DNA of 22,434 nt, from the IMG/VR virus record IMGVR_UViG_3300037141_000042, positions 1-22,434 of that record. The stretch is one strand, 5' to 3'. Of this stretch, positions 581 through 21,157 are shown one piece after another. Numbering within the stretch: position 1 is the first letter of the stretch; each line of letters starts with the position of its first letter. The stretch comes from a virus. The position numbers were made by a program, and so were the translations under genes. Under the pieces are notes generated by a model. It was not told where the DNA came from. It ran no database searches and worked only from the letters and a program-made list of their open reading frames with translations.

Positions 581-755
581 AAAGGGACTAACACTTCGCT
601 TCGACCGAACGCGTCCCGTTGGCGATCGACTGGAAGTGATTTATTGGTGCTGGAAGCATAGCCAGTACGAGCATGATTGTACGGATTGCGCTCTTGACGC
701 TGAAGGGATACCTGGCAAAGACTCTTTTGAGCAATGCGCCGAGGGAGCTGATTGA
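561..755 (+). CDS. Small Cys/His protein of unknown function
   Basis: A 64-aa protein sits between the small-terminase-like gene and TerL, overlapping the first by 20 bases and the TerL TTG start by 3 bases (TTGA). It contains a compact Cys/His cluster, C30, H33, H38, C40 and C43 (WCWKHSQYEHDCTDC), that could hold one zinc ion. The rest is polar and shows no signal peptide or membrane segment. There is no clear Shine-Dalgarno sequence, so translation may depend on coupling to the upstream gene. I do not recognise the family. Its position suggests a packaging accessory or DNA-binding role, but that is only positional inference. Confidence 0.55.
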   Translation: MPTQPIEKGLTLRFDRTRPVGDRLEVIYWCWKHSQYEHDCTDCALDAEGIPGKDSFEQCAEGAD

Positions 756-2047
756 CAATTGAGGTTGAAGCCACTTTCCCGGAACCTTTCGAGTTTCTCT
801 TTGAACCGCATCGGTACAAGGGCATTCGAGGAGGCCGCGGCAAGGGTGCGTCGTGGAACATCGCCCGCGCCTTGCTGCTGATCGGCGCCCAGCGAGAGAT
901 CCGCGTTCTCTGTGCTCGTGAGACGCAGCGCTCGATCGCTGATTCGGTTCACGCGCTACTGGGTGACCAGATCCGAGCGCTCAACCTTCAGCACTTCTAC
1001 GTGATCACTGAGGCCCACATCCGCGGCGCCAACGGAACGGAATTCATTTTCGCCGGCCTGAAGCACAACGTCGCGAACATCAAGAGCCTCGAGGGCTGCG
1101 ACATCGTATGGGTCGAGGAAGCGCAAAGCACCTCGAAGAATTCGTGGGACACGCTCATTCCGACCGTGCGAAAGCCCGGCTCAGAGATCTGGATGAGCTG
1201 GAACGACATCTTCGAAACAGACGACACGTATCTCCGCTTCGTGGTCAATCAATCACCGGGTGCCGTCATCAAGAAACTGACTTGGCGAGACAACCCATGG
1301 TTCCCCGAAGTGCTGCGCATCGAAATGGAGCACCTGAAGGCGACGGACTACCAGGCCTATTTGCACGTTTGGGAAGGCGAATGCAAGAGCGCTGTGGAGG
1401 GCGCGGTTTATGCAAAAGAAGTCCAGCAAGCAGAGACTGAAGGAAGAATCACCTCGATCCCGTGTGACCGGACTCGTCCTGTCGATACTGTGTGGGACCT
1501 CGGCTTCGGCGATTCTACGGCTATATGGTTTGTGCAACCTGTCGGAGGCTGGTATCACCTCATCGACTACATCGAAGACGAAGGCCGAACCATCGAATGG
1601 TATCTGATCCAGCTCCAGCAGCGCGGCTATGTTTACGGCACCGACTGGCTTCCTCACGACGGAATCGACACGATCATTCACGGCAAGCTCGCCGGTGACC
1701 GCTCCCGCTCAATTGAGGGAATCATGCGCGCGGCGGGCCGAAACGTTCGCATCGTTCCTAAGATGCTGGTGACCGAGGGCATCAACGCCGCGCGGACGAT
1801 CTTCCCGCAGTGCCGCTTCGATGCGGCGAAATGCTACGAAGGGCTCAGAGCGTTGCGGATGTATCAGTGGGGACCGCCGAGCAAGCTGGGAGTTGCGAAG
1901 AGCGAGCCATTGCACGACGCGGCAAGCCACGGAGCCGACGCGTTTCGAGGAGTTGCCATCGCAGTGAGGGAAGAAACTATAGCGGAGCCGAGGAAGACAC
2001 CAGCACCGCGGCGAATCATGCCAGATGAATATTCGCCCTACGGGTGA
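752..2047 (+). CDS. terL: Terminase large subunit (PBSX/P22-type packaging ATPase-nuclease)
   Basis: This is the motor and nuclease that packages DNA into the prohead, 431 aa. An N-terminal ATPase domain has a phosphate-binding loop GGRGKGAS (27-34), a Walker B strand CDIVWVEEAQ (116-125, with E122/E123) and a coupling motif IWMSWND (146-152). WRDNPWFP (178-185) is typical of PBSX-family terminases (Terminase_3). The C-terminal RNase H-like nuclease begins at WDLGFGDSTAIW (248-259); candidate metal ligands are D249, D254, D303 (LPHDG) and D396 (HGADAFRG). The TTG start at 752 is chosen for its GAGGGAG ribosome binding site (741-747), five bases upstream, and its overlap with the previous stop. 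The lysine of the phosphate loop is displaced compared with the usual GGRGSGKS. The length is normal for the family. Confidence 0.95.
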   Translation: MTIEVEATFPEPFEFLFEPHRYKGIRGGRGKGASWNIARALLLIGAQREIRVLCARETQRSIADSVHALLGDQIRALNLQHFYVITEAHIRGANGTEFIFAGLKHNVANIKSLEGCDIVWVEEAQSTSKNSWDTLIPTVRKPGSEIWMSWNDIFETDDTYLRFVVNQSPGAVIKKLTWRDNPWFPEVLRIEMEHLKATDYQAYLHVWEGECKSAVEGAVYAKEVQQAETEGRITSIPCDRTRPVDTVWDLGFGDSTAIWFVQPVGGWYHLIDYIEDEGRTIEWYLIQLQQRGYVYGTDWLPHDGIDTIIHGKLAGDRSRSIEGIMRAAGRNVRIVPKMLVTEGINAARTIFPQCRFDAAKCYEGLRALRMYQWGPPSKLGVAKSEPLHDAASHGADAFRGVAIAVREETIAEPRKTPAPRRIMPDEYSPYG

Positions 2048-3621: not shown

Positions 3622-3979
3622 CTGCGAAGCAGGCTGCGGGCGCCCGGTTTCGGACAACAAGCTCTATTGCCTTGAATGCGACGGGAATCGTCAACGCTTT
3701 AGTGAGGCTGTTCATGGAGACGCTGTCATCTGCACGCTCACCCGCATCCGCTCCAAGCATGTGGACACGCTCTCTCGCGACTCTGACGGAATGGTGATTG
3801 CGCAGCGGCAAACTGCGATGGTTCTCGTGGGGGACGATCTGCGCAACCAAAAGAACCATCTATTCGTCGACGAGGACGCCGCGATCCGATTCATTCGAGC
3901 GTTGCATCCGATCTCAAAAGAGTTGGACGGCGAAAACATGATCGTGCCCGCCAACGGCAACATGGCCCTTCGGAACTGA
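3596..3979 (+). CDS. Cys-rich hypothetical protein next to the portal gene
   Basis: The protein is up to 127 aa. A second in-frame ATG at 3614 would begin MHNCEAGCGRP and shorten the overlap with the upstream gene from 26 to 8 bases; neither start has a good ribosome binding site, so the choice is open. The N-terminal part has four cysteines (CEAGC then, after 11 residues, CLEC) arranged like a small zinc ribbon. The remainder is a mixed alpha/beta-looking segment containing MVLVGDDLRNQKNHLFVDED. No family is recognised. The stop overlaps the portal ATG by one base (TGATG), implying translational coupling with the portal. Confidence 0.65.
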   Translation: MPASGIMHNCEAGCGRPVSDNKLYCLECDGNRQRFSEAVHGDAVICTLTRIRSKHVDTLSRDSDGMVIAQRQTAMVLVGDDLRNQKNHLFVDEDAAIRFIRALHPISKELDGENMIVPANGNMALRN

Positions 3980-6246
3980 TGGCCGAATACCCCAACCTGA
4001 AGGACGAAGACATTCCAGCATTCGTGCGCAGGTGTTGGGAGCGGTACATGGACTGTACCGAGGACGAGCGCGCCGCCGAAAAGACTTCCCAAGGCTTCTA
4101 CATCGGCGGCAAGCTGCAATGGCGCGAAATTGAGATTCAGCGTCGCGAAGCTTCGAATCGGCCATGGGTCTCGATTAATCGTTGTAAACCCGCCGTCGAC
4201 CAGATCGAGAACGAAGCCCGCAACAATCCCCCGGGCCCACAGGCTCACCCGATAGGCGGATCCGGTTCCGATGATGACGCAGCCGACATTATGGAAGGGC
4301 TGATCCGAGAATACGGTTTCCGCTGTGACGCCGATTCTGCCCGATTGCTCGCACTTCGCAACGCGGCGGCTGCGGGCCGTGGCTGTTATGAGATGGGCAC
4401 TGAGTACGCGGGCGAGCGGACCATGGAGCAGCAGATCGTCATCAAATCAGCTCCGGATTCGAGCCTCTATTTCTACGATCCCGACGCCCGGCAAATTTGC
4501 CTTGAAGACGCGATGTTTCAGGGCAAGGTGCGAAAGCTCACAGCAGAGCAACTTCGTGAGGAATTTCCCAACGCCAAGCTGAAGGTTTTGGACCGCAACA
4601 CGATGGGCTCCATGGCATCCTCAGCAGTCGGGTGGATGGCTGACGTGATCGGATGGAAGAACGATTTCAGCACTGCGACGACGTGGGTGGGTGGGCCGCA
4701 GGGAATCGGACCGTACTATGTGTGCGAGTTTTACATGGTCCGCATCGAGCAGCAAAAGCTCTCGCTCTGGACGGACAACATCCTTCGCTACGCTGACGAG
4801 GAAAAGCCCGAAGGTCAGACGGTAAAACTCAACGAAGCGGGCAAGCCGATCGAGCGCATGGAAACGCGTCGGATGATCAAGAAGTACGTCGTCACGGCTT
4901 TTGACGTTCTCGAAAAGACAGACTGGCAAGGTACGCTGATTCCCATCTTCTGGGTGCTCGGTCCCGAAATGTGGCGCGACGGAAAGCGCTATCGGCTCTC
5001 GCTTCTGACAAACGCCCAGGATTCGCAGGTGGGGCTCAACTTCGCCGCGACGTCAACCGTGGAGATCATGGGAGCCCAGGCCAAGAGCCCGATTATGGGC
5101 GCGGTGGGATCATTCGATGTCGCCAATGCGCAGGGCATCAACCCATGGGCCACCAACAATACACACGCCTATCAGTACATCGAGTACAAGCCCACATTCG
5201 CGGTCAACCCGATCAACAAATCGGAAGCGACGCTCTTGCCTCCACCGGCGCGGTTCACGTGGGAAGCTCCGCTCCAAAGCGCGCTGGAGCTGGCTAATTT
5301 CTTCGGTGAGCAGATCAAGGCGGCAACCTCGGTATTCTTCGAGCCGAGCCTTCCGAGTGCTCAGCAAGCTCAGAGCGGTCGGGCGATTCAGGCTCTGCAG
5401 CAGCAGTCCAATATGGGCACGGCAAACTGGCAAGCCGCGCTGCATCGCTGCATGTGGCTGGAGTTTCAACAGGCAGCAATCATCCTGCCTCAGATCTGCT
5501 CCGGCGAGCGCGTCAAGACAATCGTGCGGCCGGATAACCAGCATGAGATCGTGACGATCAACCGGGAATTTGGCGAATACGATCCTTCTCAGATCGATCC
5601 GAAGACCGGGAAGGCCATCGACAAAGACGGCAAGCTGGTGGCTCACAACCGTATCGGCGTGGGCAAGTTCTCGCTTCGTGTCATCGCCGGGCCGAAGTTC
5701 GAAGACCGCAACGACGAGGCCATGGAGGACTTGCTGGAGGTCGCGAAGATATCACCGGCGATCATGCAGAACCCGCAGATCCTCGCCAAACTGATCCGAT
5801 GGATCGGCAAGGGCAATCCGGAGATTGAAGGCGTGGCCGATGCACTGGTGCCTGATCCTTCGAAGATGACGCCCGAAATGATGGCCGGTCAGCTCGCCCA
5901 GGCCCAGAAGGTAGCCCAAGGTCAGCAGCAGATTATTGGGAAGCTGCAGCAGGTGCTTCAGAGCAAGCTTCCGCAGGTGGAGGCGGACAAGTGGAAAGCA
6001 GCACTGGACAGCTATACCAAAATAACCGTGGCAAAGATCACGGCGTCGAAAGATTCGGACAAAGAGCAAGCTAACCGCGAAGCGTCTTTGTTAGAATCAA
6101 TCCTTCAAATGGCGCACGAGACTTCACAACAAGCTGTTGACAACGAGCACGAAGCAGATCAGGCCACGCAAGCCCAAGGCGCGACGGCTGCCCAAGCCAC
6201 GCAAGCGCAGGCCGCCGACGCCCAACAGGCGCAACCCGTTCAATAG
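3979..6246 (+). CDS. Portal protein (P22 gp1-like)
   Basis: The portal is the ring at one head vertex through which DNA enters and leaves. At 755 aa this protein is close to P22 gp1 (about 725). P22-portal features are: an N-terminal helix-rich part, NRPWVSINRCKPAVDQIENE (60-79) followed by ARNNPPGPQAHPI, the DDDAADIMEGLIR segment (about 97-109), and ARLLALRNAAAAGRGCYEMG (about 121-140), matching the pattern where P22-type portals carry a glycine-rich turn. The last 110 residues are helical and Gln/Ala-rich, ending in QATQAQ-type repeats (about 728-755), as expected of a portal barrel. The start overlaps the previous stop. The scaffold gene follows after only seven bases. Confidence 0.93.
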   Translation: MAEYPNLKDEDIPAFVRRCWERYMDCTEDERAAEKTSQGFYIGGKLQWREIEIQRREASNRPWVSINRCKPAVDQIENEARNNPPGPQAHPIGGSGSDDDAADIMEGLIREYGFRCDADSARLLALRNAAAAGRGCYEMGTEYAGERTMEQQIVIKSAPDSSLYFYDPDARQICLEDAMFQGKVRKLTAEQLREEFPNAKLKVLDRNTMGSMASSAVGWMADVIGWKNDFSTATTWVGGPQGIGPYYVCEFYMVRIEQQKLSLWTDNILRYADEEKPEGQTVKLNEAGKPIERMETRRMIKKYVVTAFDVLEKTDWQGTLIPIFWVLGPEMWRDGKRYRLSLLTNAQDSQVGLNFAATSTVEIMGAQAKSPIMGAVGSFDVANAQGINPWATNNTHAYQYIEYKPTFAVNPINKSEATLLPPPARFTWEAPLQSALELANFFGEQIKAATSVFFEPSLPSAQQAQSGRAIQALQQQSNMGTANWQAALHRCMWLEFQQAAIILPQICSGERVKTIVRPDNQHEIVTINREFGEYDPSQIDPKTGKAIDKDGKLVAHNRIGVGKFSLRVIAGPKFEDRNDEAMEDLLEVAKISPAIMQNPQILAKLIRWIGKGNPEIEGVADALVPDPSKMTPEMMAGQLAQAQKVAQGQQQIIGKLQQVLQSKLPQVEADKWKAALDSYTKITVAKITASKDSDKEQANREASLLESILQMAHETSQQAVDNEHEADQATQAQGATAAQATQAQAADAQQAQPVQ

Positions 6247-7376: not shown

Positions 7377-8606
7377 ATGGCTGGAAACAGCGAAGCAGTA
7401 CGCCAAGAAGTTGCGATGGAGGTTCTAGCGATCCTCCGCAACACTTGCCGCATGCCGCGCCTCATCAAGCGCGATTATCAAAAGTATTTCGAGGACCCGA
7501 ATCACAAGATCGGCACTTCTCTGGACATTCCTCGCCCGATCCGCGCTATCGGCGCCGATGGTCAGGCGTTGCAGCCCGAAGGGCTCGTCCGCACCACGGT
7601 TCCGTTCACGATCGCGTACTGGTCGCAGGAAGCTTTCGTTTGGAACGACATCGACGAAGCGGCTTATCTTCGCGAGGACATGCGCGAGAACTACGTGAAG
7701 CCTCACGCGGTCAACCTCGCCAACAAAGTTGACCGGCAGATGATGCAGTACATATCAAGCATCACGCCGAACTTCGTTGGAACTCCCGGAACCCCTCCCA
7801 CCACGCGATTGCAATATTCTCAGGCGCAGACGAAGTTGAACCAGCTTCTGGCGGCCGAGAAAGATCGCTTCGTGGTGTTCAATTCCAGCTACTCCCAGAA
7901 CCTCATCCAGGCCGACGCTCCGCTCTTCAACCCGAAGGACATCATTTCAGATGAGTACCGTCTCGGCAGGGTCGGGATGTACGCCGACATGCAGTTCTGG
8001 CGGGATGAGCAAATCCCGACCGGCAACGTCGGAACCTACGCGGGTTCGGGCGTGGTCAACGGTGCCAATCAAACCGGCACATCGATCCTGACCAACGGAT
8101 GGAACTCCGGAAGCTTGGCTCTCAGCCAAACCGCGGGATTCTCCGATCGCGTGACCTTCGCCGGCTGCTACGAGATCAACGGGCAGTCTCGGTTAGCCAT
8201 TCCGAACACGCTGAAGCAATTCGCGGTCGTGGCTCCCGTGACCGATGCTACGGGCGCGGCGACGCTGACCATCTTCCCCGGCATCATCCCGAGCGGGCCG
8301 TATCAGAACTGCTCGGTATCGCCGACGGCGAGCGGCGCAGTGACCGTTGCCGGCGTTTCCGGCGCCACGGCGCAGACCGCCTTCGCGATGGCTCCCAGTG
8401 CCTTCACTTGGGGGGCTTTGCGGCTGCAGAATACCTCGGAATATGGGGCGAAATGTACCCTGATGACCGACGAAGAGACCGGGATCTCGATCCGCATCAC
8501 CCAGCAGTGGGACAACGTTATCGGGCAGGTCACCCTTCGAATGGACTTCGTTTGGGGCATTTCGCAGACCTACGCCGATTACGAGTCGGTTGTGATCTAC
8601 GGCTAA
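7377..8606 (+). CDS. Major capsid (coat) protein, P22 coat-like
   Basis: The 409-aa protein is close to P22 coat gp5 (430 aa) and sits directly after the scaffold. The first part has helices and an extended strand region (HKIGTSLDIPRPIRA, about 42-56), then LVRTTVPFTIAYWSQEAF (about 68-85), which matches the early beta-rich part of P22-type coats. The central AYLREDMRENYVKPHAVNLA (about 91-110) looks like the HK97-fold spine helix. A glycine- and alanine-rich beta section (about 220-340) could be the inserted domain of P22-type coats. The C-terminus GQVTLRMDFVWGISQTYADY is typical of this family, where the coat ends in beta strands. It has the strongest ribosome binding site in the window. 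Confidence 0.88.
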   Translation: MAGNSEAVRQEVAMEVLAILRNTCRMPRLIKRDYQKYFEDPNHKIGTSLDIPRPIRAIGADGQALQPEGLVRTTVPFTIAYWSQEAFVWNDIDEAAYLREDMRENYVKPHAVNLANKVDRQMMQYISSITPNFVGTPGTPPTTRLQYSQAQTKLNQLLAAEKDRFVVFNSSYSQNLIQADAPLFNPKDIISDEYRLGRVGMYADMQFWRDEQIPTGNVGTYAGSGVVNGANQTGTSILTNGWNSGSLALSQTAGFSDRVTFAGCYEINGQSRLAIPNTLKQFAVVAPVTDATGAATLTIFPGIIPSGPYQNCSVSPTASGAVTVAGVSGATAQTAFAMAPSAFTWGALRLQNTSEYGAKCTLMTDEETGISIRITQQWDNVIGQVTLRMDFVWGISQTYADYESVVIYG

Positions 8607-12640: not shown

Positions 12641-14434
12641 TTGCCGCAATTCCCGTTAGTCGGAGCCACCTACCAAGACGAGTCTCTCGCATCCGATGCG
12701 CAGATGACTCTCAATATGTACCCGCAACGGAACACCTCCGGATCGGGGCAAGGGTCCGCGGCTTCAGCGCTTTATCAGACACCGGGCTGTTATTTGCTCT
12801 GTACCGCTGGAGCGGCGGGCGCGTGCATCGTTCCGGCTGATACGTATGTGTTCCCAGATGGCGTCACCCCGGCGTTTTTCTGCATCAACGGCGATCAGCT
12901 TCAATACATCACCATTGCGCTCGGGGTAGGGGTTTTCACGGGCGCACTCGTCACGATCGGCACGGTGGCGCAAAAGCCGCTTATCGGATCTTCGCTCTTT
13001 CCTGCTCAGATCATCGTGATCAGCCCGCAGTTGCTTTTTGTGGTGGCGAATGGGCAAGCCTTCGTTGCTGCATACGGGGCGGCGATCGCCAGCAACGGGC
13101 TTGACCAGGGCGGGGCCTCGTATGCGGCCGGCGACACTGGTATCATTGACGGCGCGCAGGGCATCGACGCAACGTATGTGATCAACACGGTGGACGGAAG
13201 TGGGGCGGTGCTCACTTACACGCTCACCTATGCGGGTATAGGCTACTCAGTCGCCACGAGTGTCGGAACGCTGGCATTCGGAATGCAGCCGGGCATCGGA
13301 ACGGGCTTCACCATCGACATCGGTGGAACGATCGCTCCCGCATGGGTGGTTCAGCAGCAAGCCATACCCGTTACCGATACTGGGTTTGGCAATTGGATCA
13401 ATTCCGCGACGTTCATGGATGGATACGTGATCGTCTCGATGGCGCCGCAGTCCGCGGACCCGCTGAGGAGACAGTTCTTCGTCTCGGGGCTGAACGATCC
13501 GAGCTTTTGGGACCCGTTAGAAGTTGGCGAGAAGGAAGGCAATCCGGACCCGATTATCGCTGTTTTCGCCGCTTATGAAATGCTCGCACTTTGGGGCAGT
13601 CAAACGATGGAACTGTGGTATGACTCGGGGAACTTGCAATTTCAGTTCAGCCGCATTGCCGGTGGGGGGGTGATCGAAAACGGTCTGGCGAGCACGTGGT
13701 GTGTTTGCAAGGCTGACGGAACAGTCATTTGGCTCGGAACGGATATCCGGGGCGACAACGTCGCCTGGCAGCTTCAGGGGATGACCCCGGTTCGGATCTC
13801 CAATCACGCCATCGAAAACACCTGGCGCAATTACGACATGAACGGATCTTCCTGCTACTCGTATCAGGAAAACGGCCATTTCTTCTGTGTTTTTAATTTC
13901 CCCGTGCCCGATGCGACTTGGGTTTACGATTCGACTACCCAGATGTGGCACCAGCGGGGGAGCACCGACGGCGGCGGCGTGCTCCACTCATCTTACGGCC
14001 GCTATCACGCCTTTGCGCAGGGCGTCGGACATGTGCTCCAGGACTACAACAACGGAAATATCTACCTTTCGAATCAGGGATTCACGAATGAGAACGGCGC
14101 GGCGATCACGCGCATTCGAAGAACTCCGCACCTCCGCAAGGAACTCGCTCGCGGCGTGCTCGATCGCGTCCGGCTGCTGGTCGACGCCGGTGGATCTTCA
14201 GCGGGCCTCGGTGGGGGCTCGATCAGTTTGCGCGTGAGCTACGACGGCGGAAACACCTGGGGACCGTACCTGACGCAGTCGATGGGAGCCACGGGCGATT
14301 TCACGCAACTGATTCAGTGGTATCACCTCGGCTACGCCAGGGACTTCGTTTTAGAGATTTCGAGCAATTCAGAAGTCTTTCAGGGCTGGATTGAAGGGTA
14401 CGGAGAGTACCGCCTGGACAAGAATCACGACTAG
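12641..14434 (+). CDS. P22 gp10-like packaged-DNA stabilisation / tail hub protein with inserted domain
   Basis: The protein is 597 aa; P22 gp10 (about 472) plugs the portal after packaging and carries the tail hub. gp10-family features include the N-terminal MPQFPLVGATYQ with LNMYPQ nearby, the FMDGYVIVS and LNDPSFWDPLE (about 288-298) strands, GVIENGLAS then VIWLGTDIRGDNVAWQLQG (363-381) and PVRISNHAIENTW. The C-terminus holds RTPHLRKELARGVLDRVRLL and a Ig-like VSYDGGNTWGPY end. Residues about 143-236 are extra: a glycine/threonine-rich beta insert (SYAAGDTGIID, YAGIGYSVATS, GIGTGFTIDIGG). The TTG start has GAGGT five bases upstream and lies seven bases after the previous stop. Confidence 0.85.
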   Translation: MPQFPLVGATYQDESLASDAQMTLNMYPQRNTSGSGQGSAASALYQTPGCYLLCTAGAAGACIVPADTYVFPDGVTPAFFCINGDQLQYITIALGVGVFTGALVTIGTVAQKPLIGSSLFPAQIIVISPQLLFVVANGQAFVAAYGAAIASNGLDQGGASYAAGDTGIIDGAQGIDATYVINTVDGSGAVLTYTLTYAGIGYSVATSVGTLAFGMQPGIGTGFTIDIGGTIAPAWVVQQQAIPVTDTGFGNWINSATFMDGYVIVSMAPQSADPLRRQFFVSGLNDPSFWDPLEVGEKEGNPDPIIAVFAAYEMLALWGSQTMELWYDSGNLQFQFSRIAGGGVIENGLASTWCVCKADGTVIWLGTDIRGDNVAWQLQGMTPVRISNHAIENTWRNYDMNGSSCYSYQENGHFFCVFNFPVPDATWVYDSTTQMWHQRGSTDGGGVLHSSYGRYHAFAQGVGHVLQDYNNGNIYLSNQGFTNENGAAITRIRRTPHLRKELARGVLDRVRLLVDAGGSSAGLGGGSISLRVSYDGGNTWGPYLTQSMGATGDFTQLIQWYHLGYARDFVLEISSNSEVFQGWIEGYGEYRLDKNHD

Positions 14435-15857: not shown

Positions 15858-17756
15858 ATGGCGTTCCCGGTCACAGTTTCGACGGTCACGCAGAGCGCGG
15901 AAGGCCCGGGCAAGTATGGACCTTACCTCGTCGGAACCAACCGCTACGAAATTCTGCTCACTCTCGTCCTCGACTCAGGATCAGGATTTTACCAGCCTTA
16001 TCTTTCGGCCTATAAGAGCACGGATCTGGGGGCGACATGGAACGAGGTCGCCGCTGGGTCACGCCCGGCCGCAGGGAATGAGGTCGCGACCATCTATCAA
16101 GTCACGCCTTACACCTGCTGCCAATCGCAGACTGATCCAACCAAGATCTTCACGATTTACGTGAATCCATCCAGCGGACAGATTGGAATCATCGCTTTCG
16201 ATGCGACGGGCGACACATGGGGATCGCCGCTTTCGAGCTCCGGTGTAAACTTGCTGCCCACGCCGCCGATTCAGTCGTACTCTGGATTTATCGGGGGAAA
16301 CGGCTTCATTGTGGCGATTCACAGATCCGCGAGTAACGACGTTCTGCTAGCGTTCCCGCAATCGAACTACACCGATGCCTCAGATGAGATCCACTGGTAT
16401 CCGCAGGTGGTCTCTTACGACGTCGCCGGCAACGCCTGGGGCACTCCCTTTGATGTGAGCTACAACGATTACGCAACTGTGATCGGATGGACGCAAGTGC
16501 CTTGCGGTTTCGTTCTCGACAGCGGCGGCGTGGCGCATCTTTTCACGCAGCAGGTCACACACACCGTTCCGGCTGCAGTTCAAAGCATCAGCGTAGGACA
16601 GACCGTGCCCTGGTATGGAGGAACCGCCGATGTAGACGTGTGGGGCGGCGGGGGCGGGGGTGCAGGTGCTTCCGATTTATGGGCTGGTGGCGGCGGCGGA
16701 GCGGGCGCGTACGCAAACGGAAGCGTCGCACTCACCCCGTTAAGCACAATCACGGGCACGATCGGAACAGGCGGCCCAGGGGGAACTTATGATTCAGCCC
16801 TAGGCGGAGCCGGATCAGACGGCACGGGCACTTCGGTGCTCACTGTGAGCGCGGGCGGTGGGGCTGGAGCCCCTATTGCAGGCGTCCCCGGCGGCAACGG
16901 TGGATCTGGGTTCGTGGTCACGAGTGACGGCGGCGGCGGCGGAGGAGGAGGAGGAACAGACAACGCTTACGGATCTGGAGGCGTGGGCGGAGATGGCATC
17001 ATTTACGACGGGACACCAGGCGATCCAAATGGTGGAGATGGCGGCACGTACGGCGCCGGAGCAGCCGGTGGAAGCGGGGGCGCCGGTGGGACTTACAACC
17101 CGGTAGACTTCCCGTCAGGCGGCGGCGGAGGCGGCGCGCAACCCGGCGGCGGCGGCGGAGGAGGAGCGCGCGCGGGCAACGGCGGTGACGGCGGCCCGGG
17201 AGACTGCTCGATCACGTATACGGCGGTGCAGGGGACGGTTTACAATTCGCGGCTGTGGCAGCAAGCCATCAACGCTGACAATACGCTCGGCACGCTCAGC
17301 GAGATTTCAGACGGTGAGTTTCCGATTCAAAGTTTTGAATGCGTGCTGACCCTCATGCCGTTTGACTGCGCGGCGGGGCCGTCGGGAGTCTCTATCGCGT
17401 TTAGCGGGGCCTACAACACGACAGGCTATAGCGACATCGAAGTGATGAGCGGAGCGAACGCGGACCCGATCAGCTTCTCAGGCACGAGCTTCTCGACAGG
17501 CGGAAGCGTTGAACCTTCGCCCGCAGTGGCGATTGACTCAGGCGGCAAGACCTACTGCGCGTACAAGCAGGCGACGTCTGGGGCGGCCTGCACGTTTCTC
17601 TATCGTGATTCCGGTTCAAGTTTCGGAACATCAAGCTCTTTCGGTTCTTTCGCCGACTCTTTCTGCCGACTCCAGGTGGGAGCGTTCGGGCCGATTCCTG
17701 AGATTACTTTCGGCGTGCCGACAATTGCGGCCGCTGAGTTTAGCCCGACGAGCTGA
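15858..17756 (+). CDS. Propeller-like tail/receptor-binding protein with large glycine-rich insert
   Basis: The protein is 632 aa. Residues 1 to about 240 and about 455-632 look like sialidase/BNR-type beta-propeller blades: SAYKSTDLGATWNEV (about 50-64), VVSYDVAGNAWGTPFDVSYN, VLDSGGVAHLF, and the matching PAVAIDSGGKTYCAYKQ near the end. Between them, about 253-452, lies a Gly-rich region starting VDVWGGGGGGAGASDLW, with TITGTIGTGGPGG and many GGGGG blocks. It matches the general Gly_rich domain pattern of phage fibres, where polyglycine type II helices pack into a sandwich. The insert interrupts the propeller. It has many Cys-poor, Gly/Ala-only stretches. Function is inferred: adhesion or receptor binding. 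No signal peptide is present. The ribosome binding site is weak. Confidence 0.7.
   Translation: MAFPVTVSTVTQSAEGPGKYGPYLVGTNRYEILLTLVLDSGSGFYQPYLSAYKSTDLGATWNEVAAGSRPAAGNEVATIYQVTPYTCCQSQTDPTKIFTIYVNPSSGQIGIIAFDATGDTWGSPLSSSGVNLLPTPPIQSYSGFIGGNGFIVAIHRSASNDVLLAFPQSNYTDASDEIHWYPQVVSYDVAGNAWGTPFDVSYNDYATVIGWTQVPCGFVLDSGGVAHLFTQQVTHTVPAAVQSISVGQTVPWYGGTADVDVWGGGGGGAGASDLWAGGGGGAGAYANGSVALTPLSTITGTIGTGGPGGTYDSALGGAGSDGTGTSVLTVSAGGGAGAPIAGVPGGNGGSGFVVTSDGGGGGGGGGTDNAYGSGGVGGDGIIYDGTPGDPNGGDGGTYGAGAAGGSGGAGGTYNPVDFPSGGGGGGAQPGGGGGGGARAGNGGDGGPGDCSITYTAVQGTVYNSRLWQQAINADNTLGTLSEISDGEFPIQSFECVLTLMPFDCAAGPSGVSIAFSGAYNTTGYSDIEVMSGANADPISFSGTSFSTGGSVEPSPAVAIDSGGKTYCAYKQATSGAACTFLYRDSGSSFGTSSSFGSFADSFCRLQVGAFGPIPEITFGVPTIAAAEFSPTS
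16641..17203 (+). repeat. Low-complexity GGN-repeat tract encoding the glycine-rich domain
   Basis: About 560 bases are dominated by GGC, GGA and GGG glycine codons, with runs such as the uninterrupted tandem GGC then GGA codons around 16929-16957 and further blocks near 17120-17165. The tract encodes residues about 262-448 of the surrounding gene. All unit changes would be in multiples of three, so slippage would alter length without breaking the frame. Mixed codons suggest that selection acts on the protein rather than on a DNA repeat. Confidence 0.75.
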
Positions 17757-18183: not shown

Positions 18184-19311
18184 ATGAAAAAAGTACTGCT
18201 AGTACTGCTGTGCGTGGGTGTGATGCTCGCTCAAAAGGTCGCGCCGCCGTCTTTCAACCTTCAGTATTTTGACAACTCAGGCGCTCCGCTGTCTAGCGGG
18301 CAACTGGTCACCTGCGGAGCTGGTACGACGTGCGCGAATCCTCCGGGAGGGGACGCGGCGACCACGTATCAAACCCCAGCGGGAACGAGCAACGCCAATC
18401 CGATCATTCTCAACAGCGCTGGGCGGGCGAACATGTATCTGACTCCAGGAGTCTCCTACAAATTCGCGCTGTATACGGCGGGAAACGTCCTCATTGGAAC
18501 TTGGGATAATCAGCTCGCCAGTTCGCTCGCCGGGACCGCCACCACAACAGCAAATCTAGTTTACGCGGGTCCATCTTCCGGCAGCGCGGCGGTTCCAACG
18601 TTCCGAGCGCTTGCGGCGGCCGACATCCCGACTCTTGCGCTGACCCTCGCCGGTTCGCAGTTTGCGAATCAGGGGACGACCGTCACGCTCCTGCATGGCA
18701 ACGGAGCCGGTAATCCGGCATGGGGCGCGGTCACCGGAAACGACTTCGGTACGGGCATCGCGGCTCGATCCGGCCTCGGCAGAAACGCAGCGACCACCGG
18801 AGCGCCGGCCTTTGGCACCACGGAAGATCGACTCGCCTATCAAGTTGCCGAGATTCCCAGCTCAGTATTCGTGACGACCGACTTCACTACGGCCTCGAGC
18901 ACGGCGCTGCAGCTCATCACGGGGCTGACCTGGACCGTTCCGGCGAACACGGCGCTGAACATCCCGTTCACTTGCCATCTGACGTACTCCCAGGCGACGG
19001 CCGCCGCGGCGGTTGCATTTGGAATTCAGGACGCCACTGTTTCTCCCTCAAATATCGGCGCACAGGCCACGATCCAGACGAATACAACGGTCTTTGCATC
19101 GGGCGCGGTTGTGGCGCTGCAGAGCACGACAGCAACGGCCATCGTAAGCGCAACTCCGAGCGCCACAGGCACGAACTACACGGTCCAGATTACCGGCTTT
19201 ATCGAAGCGCCTTCGAACGCCTCGAGCACGGCGATAAACGTAATGGTGAGCACAGCGACGAGTGGCGACGCGGTCACGGTTTACGAGGGGTCGTTCTGCC
19301 ACGTCAACTAA
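18184..19311 (+). CDS. Tail-fibre-like protein with N-terminal Sec signal peptide
   Basis: The protein is 375 aa. Residues 1-17 (MKKVLLVLLCVGVMLAQ) form a Sec-type signal. Straight after it, residues 20-110 match a widely seen phage fibre opening: NLQYFDNSGAPLSSGQLVTC, a TYQTP..NANPIILNSAGRA block, and KFALYTAG..IGTWDN. A linker contains YAGPSSGSAA and PTFRALAAADIPTL (about 137-150), also typical of phage fibres. Residues about 234-375 are a Ser/Thr/Ala-rich beta domain (TALQLITGLTWTVPANTALN, QATIQTNTTVF) ending in CHVN, probably the trimer/receptor tip. Cysteines C44 and C50 replace positions I expect to be non-Cys, and C264 and C372 make an even set. A ribosome binding site is weak (AGGGGG about 13 bases away). 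Confidence 0.75.
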   Translation: MKKVLLVLLCVGVMLAQKVAPPSFNLQYFDNSGAPLSSGQLVTCGAGTTCANPPGGDAATTYQTPAGTSNANPIILNSAGRANMYLTPGVSYKFALYTAGNVLIGTWDNQLASSLAGTATTTANLVYAGPSSGSAAVPTFRALAAADIPTLALTLAGSQFANQGTTVTLLHGNGAGNPAWGAVTGNDFGTGIAARSGLGRNAATTGAPAFGTTEDRLAYQVAEIPSSVFVTTDFTTASSTALQLITGLTWTVPANTALNIPFTCHLTYSQATAAAAVAFGIQDATVSPSNIGAQATIQTNTTVFASGAVVALQSTTATAIVSATPSATGTNYTVQITGFIEAPSNASSTAINVMVSTATSGDAVTVYEGSFCHVN

Positions 19312-19329
19312 TTGACAAATATCCCTATA

Positions 19330-19791
19330 ATGACTCAAGTGACGGAGATTCGTAGAGTTACGGTTGAGGAACTTCCCAGTGTTGCGGGGCCAGCTCATGA
19401 GGTTTATGCCGACGTGCAGCCCATTTTTGACCACGGCCGCTTCGTGGAACTGTGGACGCGCTGGATTTCTGCCGGGACTGGTGTCATGTTCGCCGCCTTC
19501 GACGGCCAGCGCGTGGTGGGTGCGATCGCGGGCATGTCCTATATCGAGCCTTACAGCGGCGAGCGCACGGCGCAGGAATTCTTCTGGTTTATGTCGAAGG
19601 ACCACCGCGGCGGCATGACGAGCATTCGCCTCTATAAGCTGTTCGAGGGCTGGTGTCAGGAGAACGGTGTGCGTGAATTGCGCATGACGAGCCTGGCCAA
19701 TTCTAAATCAGTCTCCTCGTTTTACGGCCGGATGGGATTTCACGAGGTCGAAACGTTATACGCCAAGCGATTCAGAGAAAGGGCAGCGTGA
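19330..19791 (+). CDS. GNAT-family N-acetyltransferase
   Basis: The protein is 153 aa from ATG 19330; an in-frame TTG at 19312 right after the previous stop would add six residues, and neither start has a ribosome binding site. GNAT enzymes transfer an acetyl group from acetyl-CoA to an amine. The fold pattern is present: MFAAFDGQRVVGAIAG, the EFFWFMSKDHRGGMTSIRLY (about 82-101) strand plus acetyl-CoA loop and helix, LRMTSLANSKSVSSFYGRMGF and a last strand before KRFRERAA. The RGGMTS loop is close to, but not exactly, R/QxxGxG/A. The substrate is unknown. Its stop overlaps the GTG of the next gene (GTGA), implying coupled expression with the oxygenase-like protein. Confidence 0.82.
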   Translation: MTQVTEIRRVTVEELPSVAGPAHEVYADVQPIFDHGRFVELWTRWISAGTGVMFAAFDGQRVVGAIAGMSYIEPYSGERTAQEFFWFMSKDHRGGMTSIRLYKLFEGWCQENGVRELRMTSLANSKSVSSFYGRMGFHEVETLYAKRFRERAA

Positions 19792-20342
19792 CGCAAGTTT
19801 CAAGAATTTGCATCCTCGACAATGTTTTGAAAGATCCCGAACTCTATCGCGTGGAAGCACTGAAGCGTGAGTTTAAGACCTATGAGTTTCCAACCACCAT
19901 TTTTCACGGGCTCAGCCCGGGAACGGTCTCGACGGAACTCTTTGACCGCATTCGTGATTACAATCCGGAACTTGTCACAACCTTCTCTTCGTTCCGCCGA
20001 AGCCCGCTAGGGCAAGTAGAGCCGAACTTCATCCACACCGATATCGACATGGGAGAGTGGAGCGGAGTGTTTTACTTGAGTCCGAACCCGCCGCAGGGAG
20101 ACGGAACAAGCTTTTGGACGCATCGGGAGACGGGGGCCATCGAGAGTAACGTTCCGCATGAGCGGTCGACGGAAGGGCTCACCAGCGAAGGATGGATACT
20201 CCGGGAGGCAGTTGACGCAGTTTTCAATCGGTTGCTCCTCTTCCCTTCGGCATACTTTCATTCGCGCTCGATTCACGAAAACTGGGGCGCCGGTGAAGAC
20301 GCTCGGCTAACGCAAGTAGTATTCGGAAAAGGCAAACTGTGA
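19788..20342 (+). CDS. 2OG-Fe(II) oxygenase-like protein (DUF6445-type)
   Basis: The protein is 184 aa. Iron- and 2-oxoglutarate-binding residues of the family can be placed: H83 and D85 (NFIHTDIDMGEW), H158 (FPSAYFHSR) and R173 (ARLTQVVFG), separated by a strand GVFYL and a GTSFWTHRETG turn. The pattern resembles DUF6445-type putative oxygenases found in some bacteria and phages, which I recall only at family level. Such enzymes hydroxylate or otherwise oxidise a substrate; none is evident here. The GTG start overlaps the previous stop and has AAAGGG upstream. Its own stop overlaps the next GTG (GTGA). Its site inside the tail block suggests it modifies virion, host-surface or small-molecule targets. 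Confidence 0.8.
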   Translation: MTQVSRICILDNVLKDPELYRVEALKREFKTYEFPTTIFHGLSPGTVSTELFDRIRDYNPELVTTFSSFRRSPLGQVEPNFIHTDIDMGEWSGVFYLSPNPPQGDGTSFWTHRETGAIESNVPHERSTEGLTSEGWILREAVDAVFNRLLLFPSAYFHSRSIHENWGAGEDARLTQVVFGKGKL

Positions 20343-21157
20343 GCATCGGAACGGCCTTAATAATTGGAGGGTCAATCTCAGCCGCGGGAGGCATAGCCGA
20401 TGCGCTGATTGGTTCGAGCGCAGCGAAGACCGCCGCTCAGGAGCAGCAGCAGTCGGCTCAACAGGCACTCGATTTCCAAAAGCAGGTATACGGAACGCAG
20501 CAGTCGAACCTTGCGCCTTATATGACAGCCGGGAACACCGCGCTGTCTTCGCTGATGACTGGGTTTTCGAACGGAACCTTCGGACCTGGTTCCATTCCGG
20601 CATTTACCGCACCGACCGCAGCGCAGGCCGAAGCGACACCCGGCTATCAATTCAATCTCCAGCAAGGCCTAAAATCGGTTGACGAAGGAGCCGCGGCTCG
20701 CGGTGGATTGCAGACAGGCGGGACGATCAAAGCCGAGCAGAATTACGGGGCCGGTCTCGCTTCGAGTACCTATCAGAACACGTTTAGCAACGCACTCTCT
20801 CAGTACAATGCCGCACTCAGCGGCCAAGCGCAAAATTTCAATCAACTTGCTGGCGTGGCTGACATCGGGCTAGGAGCAGCGACTGGCGTGAACCAAGCCG
20901 GCACAGCGGCGGCTAGCAATATCTCACAACTGATGACCGCACAAGGCAACGCGGCGGCAGCGGGCACGGTGGGAAGCGCCAATGCGATCACGGGCGCGAT
21001 ATCAAACACGACGAGCAATACGGGAACGGATCTACTCCTGAGTCAACTCTTGAAGAATCCAGGAGCTAGTGGAGGCGGTGGGTTCTCCGTACCAGCGGGC
21101 ACAGCCACCGCTGCATCTTACGACCCCGTGACATCAGGGAATGGATTGGGGGGATAA
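20339..21157 (+). CDS. DNA ejection / transfer protein (P22 gp7-like type)
   Basis: The 272-aa protein has a GTG start that overlaps the previous stop (GTGA), with AAAGG upstream. It opens with a hydrophobic glycine-rich helix (ALIIGGSISAAGGIADALIG, 6-25) and a Gln/Ala-rich helix (SSAAKTAAQEQQQSAQQALD, 26-45). Then come PGYQFNLQQGLKSVDEGAAA (about 101-120) and RGGLQTGGTIKAEQNYG-like segments that are typical of podovirus 'DNA transfer' or internal virion proteins that leave the head with the genome and help form the channel. The end is Gly/Ser/Asn-rich. P22 gp7 is of similar size (about 229 aa). Identification is by pattern and by position before a second, longer ejection-type protein. Confidence 0.82.
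   Translation: MSIGTALIIGGSISAAGGIADALIGSSAAKTAAQEQQQSAQQALDFQKQVYGTQQSNLAPYMTAGNTALSSLMTGFSNGTFGPGSIPAFTAPTAAQAEATPGYQFNLQQGLKSVDEGAAARGGLQTGGTIKAEQNYGAGLASSTYQNTFSNALSQYNAALSGQAQNFNQLAGVADIGLGAATGVNQAGTAAASNISQLMTAQGNAAAAGTVGSANAITGAISNTTSNTGTDLLLSQLLKNPGASGGGGFSVPAGTATAASYDPVTSGNGLGG

Follow-up and report, generated by a model that had tools for sequence, protein, structure and literature searches.

A pair of adjacent genes in a P22-like short-tailed phage, encoding a GNAT acetyltransferase and a predicted Fe(II)/2-oxoglutarate (2OG) oxygenase of the DUF6445 family, was found to recur in the same order in phage contigs of IMG/VR and in some of them to be fused into a single reading frame. 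Since the fusions occur in both orders and the distances within the two protein families are correlated, there is strong sequence evidence that the GNAT and the oxygenase would act as one functional unit. We propose that this unit may carry out post-translational modification of a tail or ejection protein of the phage, with the neighbouring gp7-like protein as the likeliest substrate, and we give this reading an even chance of being right.

Position of the enzyme pair in the window

The window, that is the whole stretch of DNA analysed, is a 22.4-kb IMG/VR virus record whose genes, according to Pfam and PHROGs, represent the block of head and tail genes of a P22-like short-tailed phage. The features referred to below are as follows.

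752..2047, + strand: terminase large subunit
3979..6246, + strand: P22-like portal protein
12641..14434, + strand: head closure Hc3 / P22 gp10-like protein
18184..19311, + strand: fibre-like protein upstream of the GNAT, without a family match; alternative proposed substrate
19330..19791, + strand: GNAT acetyltransferase (phrog_1249, PF00583); E83 (beta-4) and R93-G94 (CoA loop) invariant in the family
19788..19791, + strand: GTGA stop/start overlap from the GNAT to the oxygenase
19788..20342, + strand: predicted DUF6445 Fe(II)/2OG oxygenase (PF20043, phrog_1644); prolyl-hydroxylase-like fold model
20034-20036, 20040-20042 and 20259-20261, + strand: predicted metal triad H83, D85 and H158 of the oxygenase (19788..20342)
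20304-20306, + strand: R173 of the oxygenase, candidate 2OG carboxylate ligand
20339..20342, + strand: GTGA stop/start overlap from the oxygenase to the ejection gene
20339..21157, + strand: gp7-like DNA ejection protein, proposed substrate; phrog_598 'DNA ejection', weak P22_gp7 match; N-terminus MSIGTALIIGGS

The first-pass annotation had described GNAT and 2OG-oxygenase reading frames with GTGA overlaps at 19788 and 20339, lying between a fibre and an ejection gene. The coordinates and the Pfam and PHROG assignments agree with this description, and the pair is indeed flanked by the fibre-like gene at 18184-19311 and the phrog_598 gene at 20339-21157. The GNAT reading frame starts with ATG at 19330 (alternative starts are TTG at 19312 and GTG at 19339), the oxygenase frame begins with GTG, and an AAAGG-like stretch is present 5' of each of the two overlaps. 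Elsewhere in the window, a protein of 160 aa, zinc-finger-like in having several CxxC pairs, is encoded at 98-580, just upstream of the terminase gene, and the fibre-like protein at 15858-17756 contains a glycine-rich domain (PF21722).

Family, active site and predicted fold of the two proteins

The product of 19788-20342 scored 34.9 bits against PF20043 (DUF6445, cut-off 24) and matched phrog_1644 with an E value of 1.2e-22; a match to 2OG-FeII_Oxy_5 was sub-threshold. H83, D85, H158 and R173 were invariant in 33 of 33 aligned DUF6445 proteins, and among the 54 pair members they were kept wherever the sequence has letters at these positions. The AlphaFold2 model (31 sequences, pLDDT 91) showed a double-stranded beta-helix, to which 661 of 1000 chains were similar at Z >= 8. 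The best VIA-align row was the Pseudomonas prolyl-4-hydroxylase 4j25 (Z 13.3, rmsd 2.9, 149 aligned), and further best rows included PHD2, Trichoplax PHD, OGFOD1 and the P4H-EF-Tu complex 4iw3; the P4H enzymes, PHD2 and OGFOD1 have proteins as their substrates. The closest predicted folds, those of Pseudomonas P4H, PHD2 and OGFOD1 (Z ~13), have the same HxD...H...R layout, but these proteins are only 12-18% identical to the oxygenase and have no GNAT partner. The top Foldseek rows were the natural-product enzymes ColD, HygX and EvdO1, with prolyl hydroxylases lower, so the fold leaves the substrate class unsettled; the Z-scores do not separate prolyl hydroxylases from small-molecule oxygenases. 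On the basis of sequence and fold model we predict that 19788-20342 encodes an Fe(II)/2OG oxygenase. Two functions named by PHROGs, phrog_1644 'minor coat protein' and phrog_274 'DNA endonuclease V', were considered for this gene and rejected, as its sequence and its fold both mark it as a 2OG oxygenase. The families that bear these two names match 2OG oxygenases, and the names are probably mis-annotations, which have since passed into RefSeq cyanophages. Nothing on DUF6445 was found in a search of the literature. In a fold search of viral models, a domain of the Satyrvirus protein A0A3G5AE29 (585 aa, 'glycosyltransferase 2-like') matched the oxygenase with a TM of 0.79 on the query and 26% identity.

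The GNAT (19330-19791) scored 25.9 bits against PF00583, above the cut-off of 20.7, and matched phrog_1249 with an E value of 3.6e-18. Among the 54 pair members E83, R93 and G94 are invariant and Y132 is nearly so, E83 being located on beta-4, the usual place of the GNAT catalytic base. Within the CoA loop (R/Q-x-x-G-x-G/A), R93 and G94 are present in 54/54 members and the later glycine in 53/54. The window GNAT alone has a serine at the latter position and its CoA loop is two residues longer; because of these deviations the activity of this particular protein is not assured. The AlphaFold2 model (29 sequences, pLDDT 90) gave a confident GNAT fold, with 978 of 1000 chains at Z >= 8 and a top Z of 17.8. 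The protein acetyltransferases NatC, RimI and Ard1 appeared in the top rows, tied with aminoglycoside (AAC) and phosphinothricin enzymes, and the Z-scores do not tell protein acetyltransferases apart from those that act on aminoglycosides or polyamines. Aminoglycoside resistance was rejected as a role for the GNAT, with NCBIfam models scoring 19.9 bits against a cut-off of 140.

Recurrence, fusion and correlated divergence of the pair

A scan of IMG/VR with the oxygenase detected three close relatives, all in the order GNAT, oxygenase, gp7-like gene, and a scan with an oxygenase profile detected 80 loci. In the P22-like oxygenase clade (23 contigs and the window) the GNAT lay directly upstream in 24/24 and the gp7-like gene was found downstream in most, three being single-ORF; the other 57 of the 80 loci belong to a more distant clade, ~31-41% identical, with no GNAT in reach. 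A further scan, this time with a profile of the GNAT, raised the total number of pairs to at least 54 IMG/VR contigs including the window, or 43 clusters at 90% and 28 at 70% oxygenase identity, the counts being lower bounds since the scans rely on short conserved peptides. In nearly all of these contigs the pair is located inside the late structural block at the fibre-to-ejection joint and the gp7-like gene comes next. The recurrence of this gene order in 54 contigs is far more than chance. The pair clade is known from metagenomic contigs only.

Both domains were present in one ORF in 11 of the 54 contigs, as GNAT-oxygenase in ten (for example L022, 329 aa, and L026, 340 aa) and as oxygenase followed by GNAT in one (L124:4143-5432). 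When eight of the 11 fused ORFs were searched with Pfam, the GNAT was above cut-off in 8/8 and DUF6445 in five (L026, L124, L143, L150 and L161). DUF6445 was just below cut-off in L022 and L168, and the second domain of L129 was found only by the oxygenase profile built here. The pairwise distances of the GNATs correlated with those of the oxygenases (Mantel r 0.80, p 1e-4, 22 pairs). The earlier suggestion that the two genes form a unit is thus borne out by conserved adjacency, correlated divergence and 11 natural fusions. The search for the same adjacent pair in other phages, which the first-pass annotation had recommended, also answers its concern that the pair might be unique to one contig with degraded active sites, or H83/D85/H158 unconserved: the pair occurs in 54 contigs and the residues are invariant wherever they could be aligned.

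The GNAT-oxygenase pairing and the fusions were absent from the 50,697 annotated phage records searched, no record among these spanned both halves of the fused protein, and a literature search returned no paper describing the pair. The oxygenase query of annotated phages detected marine and cyanophage relatives only, and none in annotated roseophages; a GNAT and a 2OG oxygenase are both reported in some subgroups of the CRP-810-type roseophages (PMC11288001). The 2OG oxygenase of the P22-like phage MW202483 was considered as a relative and set aside (hhalign probability 2%, weak). A search for a bacterial host among 84,980 species genomes using one peptide pattern gave one distant relative, on a Bacteroidetes MAG contig, and a plasmid search gave no match.

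The insertion site and its occupants in other phages

In the nearest annotated P22-like phages, Rhodoferax phage P26218 and DSL-LC05, the fibre gene overlaps the ejection gene and there is no insert, so the cassette represents an insertion at exactly the fibre/ejection joint. A GNAT without the oxygenase was found directly before gp7 in approximately 20 related IMG/VR contigs. In another contig the core GNAT is fused to a second GNAT (PF13302, RimJ-like) and not to an oxygenase (L159:4995-5924), and in yet another a PF13302-type second GNAT is encoded as a separate gene just upstream (L001:5056-5541). The GNAT-only contigs and these second GNATs indicate that the cassette is modular around the core GNAT, with enzymes swapped; its forms are the GNAT, the GNAT with a second GNAT, the GNAT with the hydroxylase, and fusions in both orders.

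GNATs of phrog_1249 are found beside tail or internal virion genes in the cobaviruses SIO1 and ICBM2, Vibrio phage 1.293.O, Pam1 and the SP6/K1E group, and those scanned (ICBM2, 1.293.O and K1E) belong to the same PHROG as the window GNAT. In the cobaviruses, 1.293.O and Pam1 the GNAT occupies the same slot, with tail proteins on one side and internal virion or injectosome genes on the other, and the codons often overlap. It is followed in Lentibacter phage ICBM2 by the gene of internal virion protein B, with a one-base overlap, and in Vibrio phage 1.293.O by a gene of phrog_8168, the same PHROG as the downstream gene of ICBM2; in Pam1 the GNAT, similar to the family GNAT by tblastn, is located among needle and injectosome genes. 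Unlike the window GNAT, none of the cultured-phage phrog_1249 GNATs inspected has an oxygenase partner. In K1E and the Vectreviruses this PHROG is represented by a GNAT next to the portal gene and not next to gp14, a position that counts against the role proposed below. The next gene after it in K1E, gp28 (L104:3310-3519), belongs to phrog_1320 'host range and adsorption', which we take to be T7 gp7.3-like, so phrog_1249 GNATs may pair with different virion proteins.

T7 gp13 (PF11090, phrog_308) occupies an equivalent slot, between genes 12 and 14 and directly before the gp14-like ejection gene, but its Pfam and PHROG families differ from those of the window GNAT. It matched only PF11090/phrog_308, and hhalign of the GNAT profile against the single T7 gp13 sequence gave a probability of 0.5%. 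This profile comparison speaks neither for nor against gp13 being of the GNAT family, and the link between the two is one of position only. The cobavirus GNAT has been proposed to be equivalent to T7 gp13, with a suggested role in morphogenesis (PMC6775973), and T7 gp14, gp6.7 and gp7.3 all exit the virion at ejection (PMC11784390). Published guesses for ejection-side GNATs comprise a fatty-acid transporter, host metabolism and virion morphogenesis. The view that this slot is purely structural in other phages is not general, given the GNATs in cobaviruses, Vibrio phage 1.293.O and cyanophage Pam1. Each half of the pair is a known, uncharacterised phage family and a GNAT in the slot was already known; what is new is the hydroxylase partner and the fusions. 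The earlier proposal of an undescribed system holds for the pairing, which was found in none of the annotated phages and papers searched, but not for the GNAT half, of which same-PHROG members are known.

Proposed function and alternatives

We propose that the GNAT and the DUF6445 oxygenase would be expressed late, together with the virion genes, as one unit, and that the target of this unit would be a tail or ejection protein of the phage, likeliest the gp7-like ejection protein encoded beside it. In the GNAT step, an acetyl (or other acyl) group would be passed to an amine, for which the N-terminus or a lysine is plausible. The oxygenase step would use Fe(II), O2 and 2-oxoglutarate to hydroxylate a side chain, with proline as a plausible target. 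The GNAT would be the core of the cassette and the hydroxylase an add-on placed between the GNAT and gp7. A virion-protein target is favoured by two observations: an ejection gene is the neighbour that stays constant, and the oxygenase fold is nearest to protein prolyl hydroxylases. The occurrence of DUF6445 relatives elsewhere in glycan clusters counts against a protein-modification reading. We infer the protein nature of the substrate, its identity as the gp7-like or the fibre protein, the chemistry of each step and the action of both enzymes on one molecule. The three targets suggested by the first-pass annotation fared differently: a virion protein gained from the ejection neighbour and the fold, whereas a host envelope component and a secondary metabolite found no support, as genes for sugars, lipids or biosynthesis are absent beside the pair. 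The N-terminal serine of gp7 was considered as an acetylation mark and rejected. The motif MS[IV]G is common in the pair phages, yet it is not evidence, because the ATGA overlap forces codon 2 to begin with A.

The alternatives are taken in the order host protein, small molecule, structural role and DNA modification, each less probable than the one before. Modification of a host protein during infection, for instance a ribosomal protein or EF-Tu (related hydroxylases and acetyltransferases are known to act on both), which would favour late expression or block a defence, seems to us unlikely: the fold matches include the EF-Tu-bound P4H, RimI and OGFOD1, which acts on a ribosomal protein, but the pair lies in the late structural block in nearly all contigs and not with early takeover genes. 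In favour of the idea that a small molecule or surface sugar (an antibiotic, polyamine, amino acid or LPS) is modified, the GNAT matches include aminoglycoside and polyamine acetyltransferases and the first Foldseek rows of the oxygenase act on natural products; relatives in glycosyltransferase clusters (S-SSM7 and AG-345-E08) are also in keeping with it. This idea we consider improbable, as there is no sugar or biosynthetic gene beside the pair and the aminoglycoside models scored 19.9 against 140 bits.

One or both proteins might instead serve in assembly or as structural components, and their enzyme activity might be dispensable; T7 gp13 may be a case of this kind. The slot is that of T7 gene 13, which encodes an internal virion protein, between genes 12 and 14, the gp13 correspondence with a morphogenesis role has been suggested (PMC6775973), and the CoA loop of the window GNAT deviates. 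The catalytic residues, however, are invariant even between members of 37% identity and hhalign gave no match of the GNAT profile to T7 gp13, which makes a structural role a still more improbable reading. Base modification of the phage DNA is very improbable. Although phage DNA modification is known to involve 2OG oxygenases as well as proteins of the GNAT fold, the window contains no further base-modification gene, and the P4H-like fold and the position by the ejection gene argue against it.

Returning to modification of a tail or ejection protein as the preferred reading, we tentatively extend it to a two-step system in which the phage would acetylate and hydroxylate its own DNA-ejection (or tail) protein by means of a modular cassette, so that injection machines would mature through small-molecule cofactors and oxygen; in this full form the proposal is possible but rather doubtful. 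If it is true, phage enzymes would finish ejection proteins post-translationally, possibly in an oxygen-dependent manner, and such self-modification of the injection machine by a phage is not known from any described phage system. Annotations of short-tailed phages have listed ejection-side GNATs for years and given them no function. The coupled or fused hydroxylase narrows the question to two enzymes with intact sites that would work on a common target or pathway, and the gene that constantly adjoins the pair points to the injection apparatus.

Relatives of the two proteins in other gene neighbourhoods

Oxygenases of the same DUF6445/phrog_1644 family, 24-31% identical, are encoded by S-WAM2, S-SSM7 and AG-345-E08 (cyanophages and marine viruses), and the metal triad is kept in the two that were aligned, AG-345-E08 and S-WAM2. 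These genes are located near tail or neck genes or in glycosyltransferase clusters, the latter in S-SSM7 and the marine virus AG-345-E08, and in the three regions inspected no GNAT was found beside the oxygenase. Inspection by eye of the AG-345-E08 cluster (L006:2334-8824) placed the DUF6445 gene among apparent glycosyltransferases, more 2OG-type oxygenases and nucleotide-sugar genes, which suggests hydroxylation before glycosylation in that cluster. A second large DUF6445 clade was observed in other phages (L037, L047, L053, L055, L071 and L087; oxygenase at ~8000-8480), where the neighbours of the oxygenase gene are two large genes and one for a protein of 187-188 aa, all three conserved, and codon overlaps are frequent; the 187-188 aa neighbour showed a weak, sub-cutoff match to GroES/Cpn10 in L053. 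A relative of the GNAT was also detected in a siphophage, Paracoccus phage vB_PthS_Pthi1 (L191, 3992-4393), between the tape-measure and tail-fibre genes, so the link to tail-tip genes extends past short-tailed phages.
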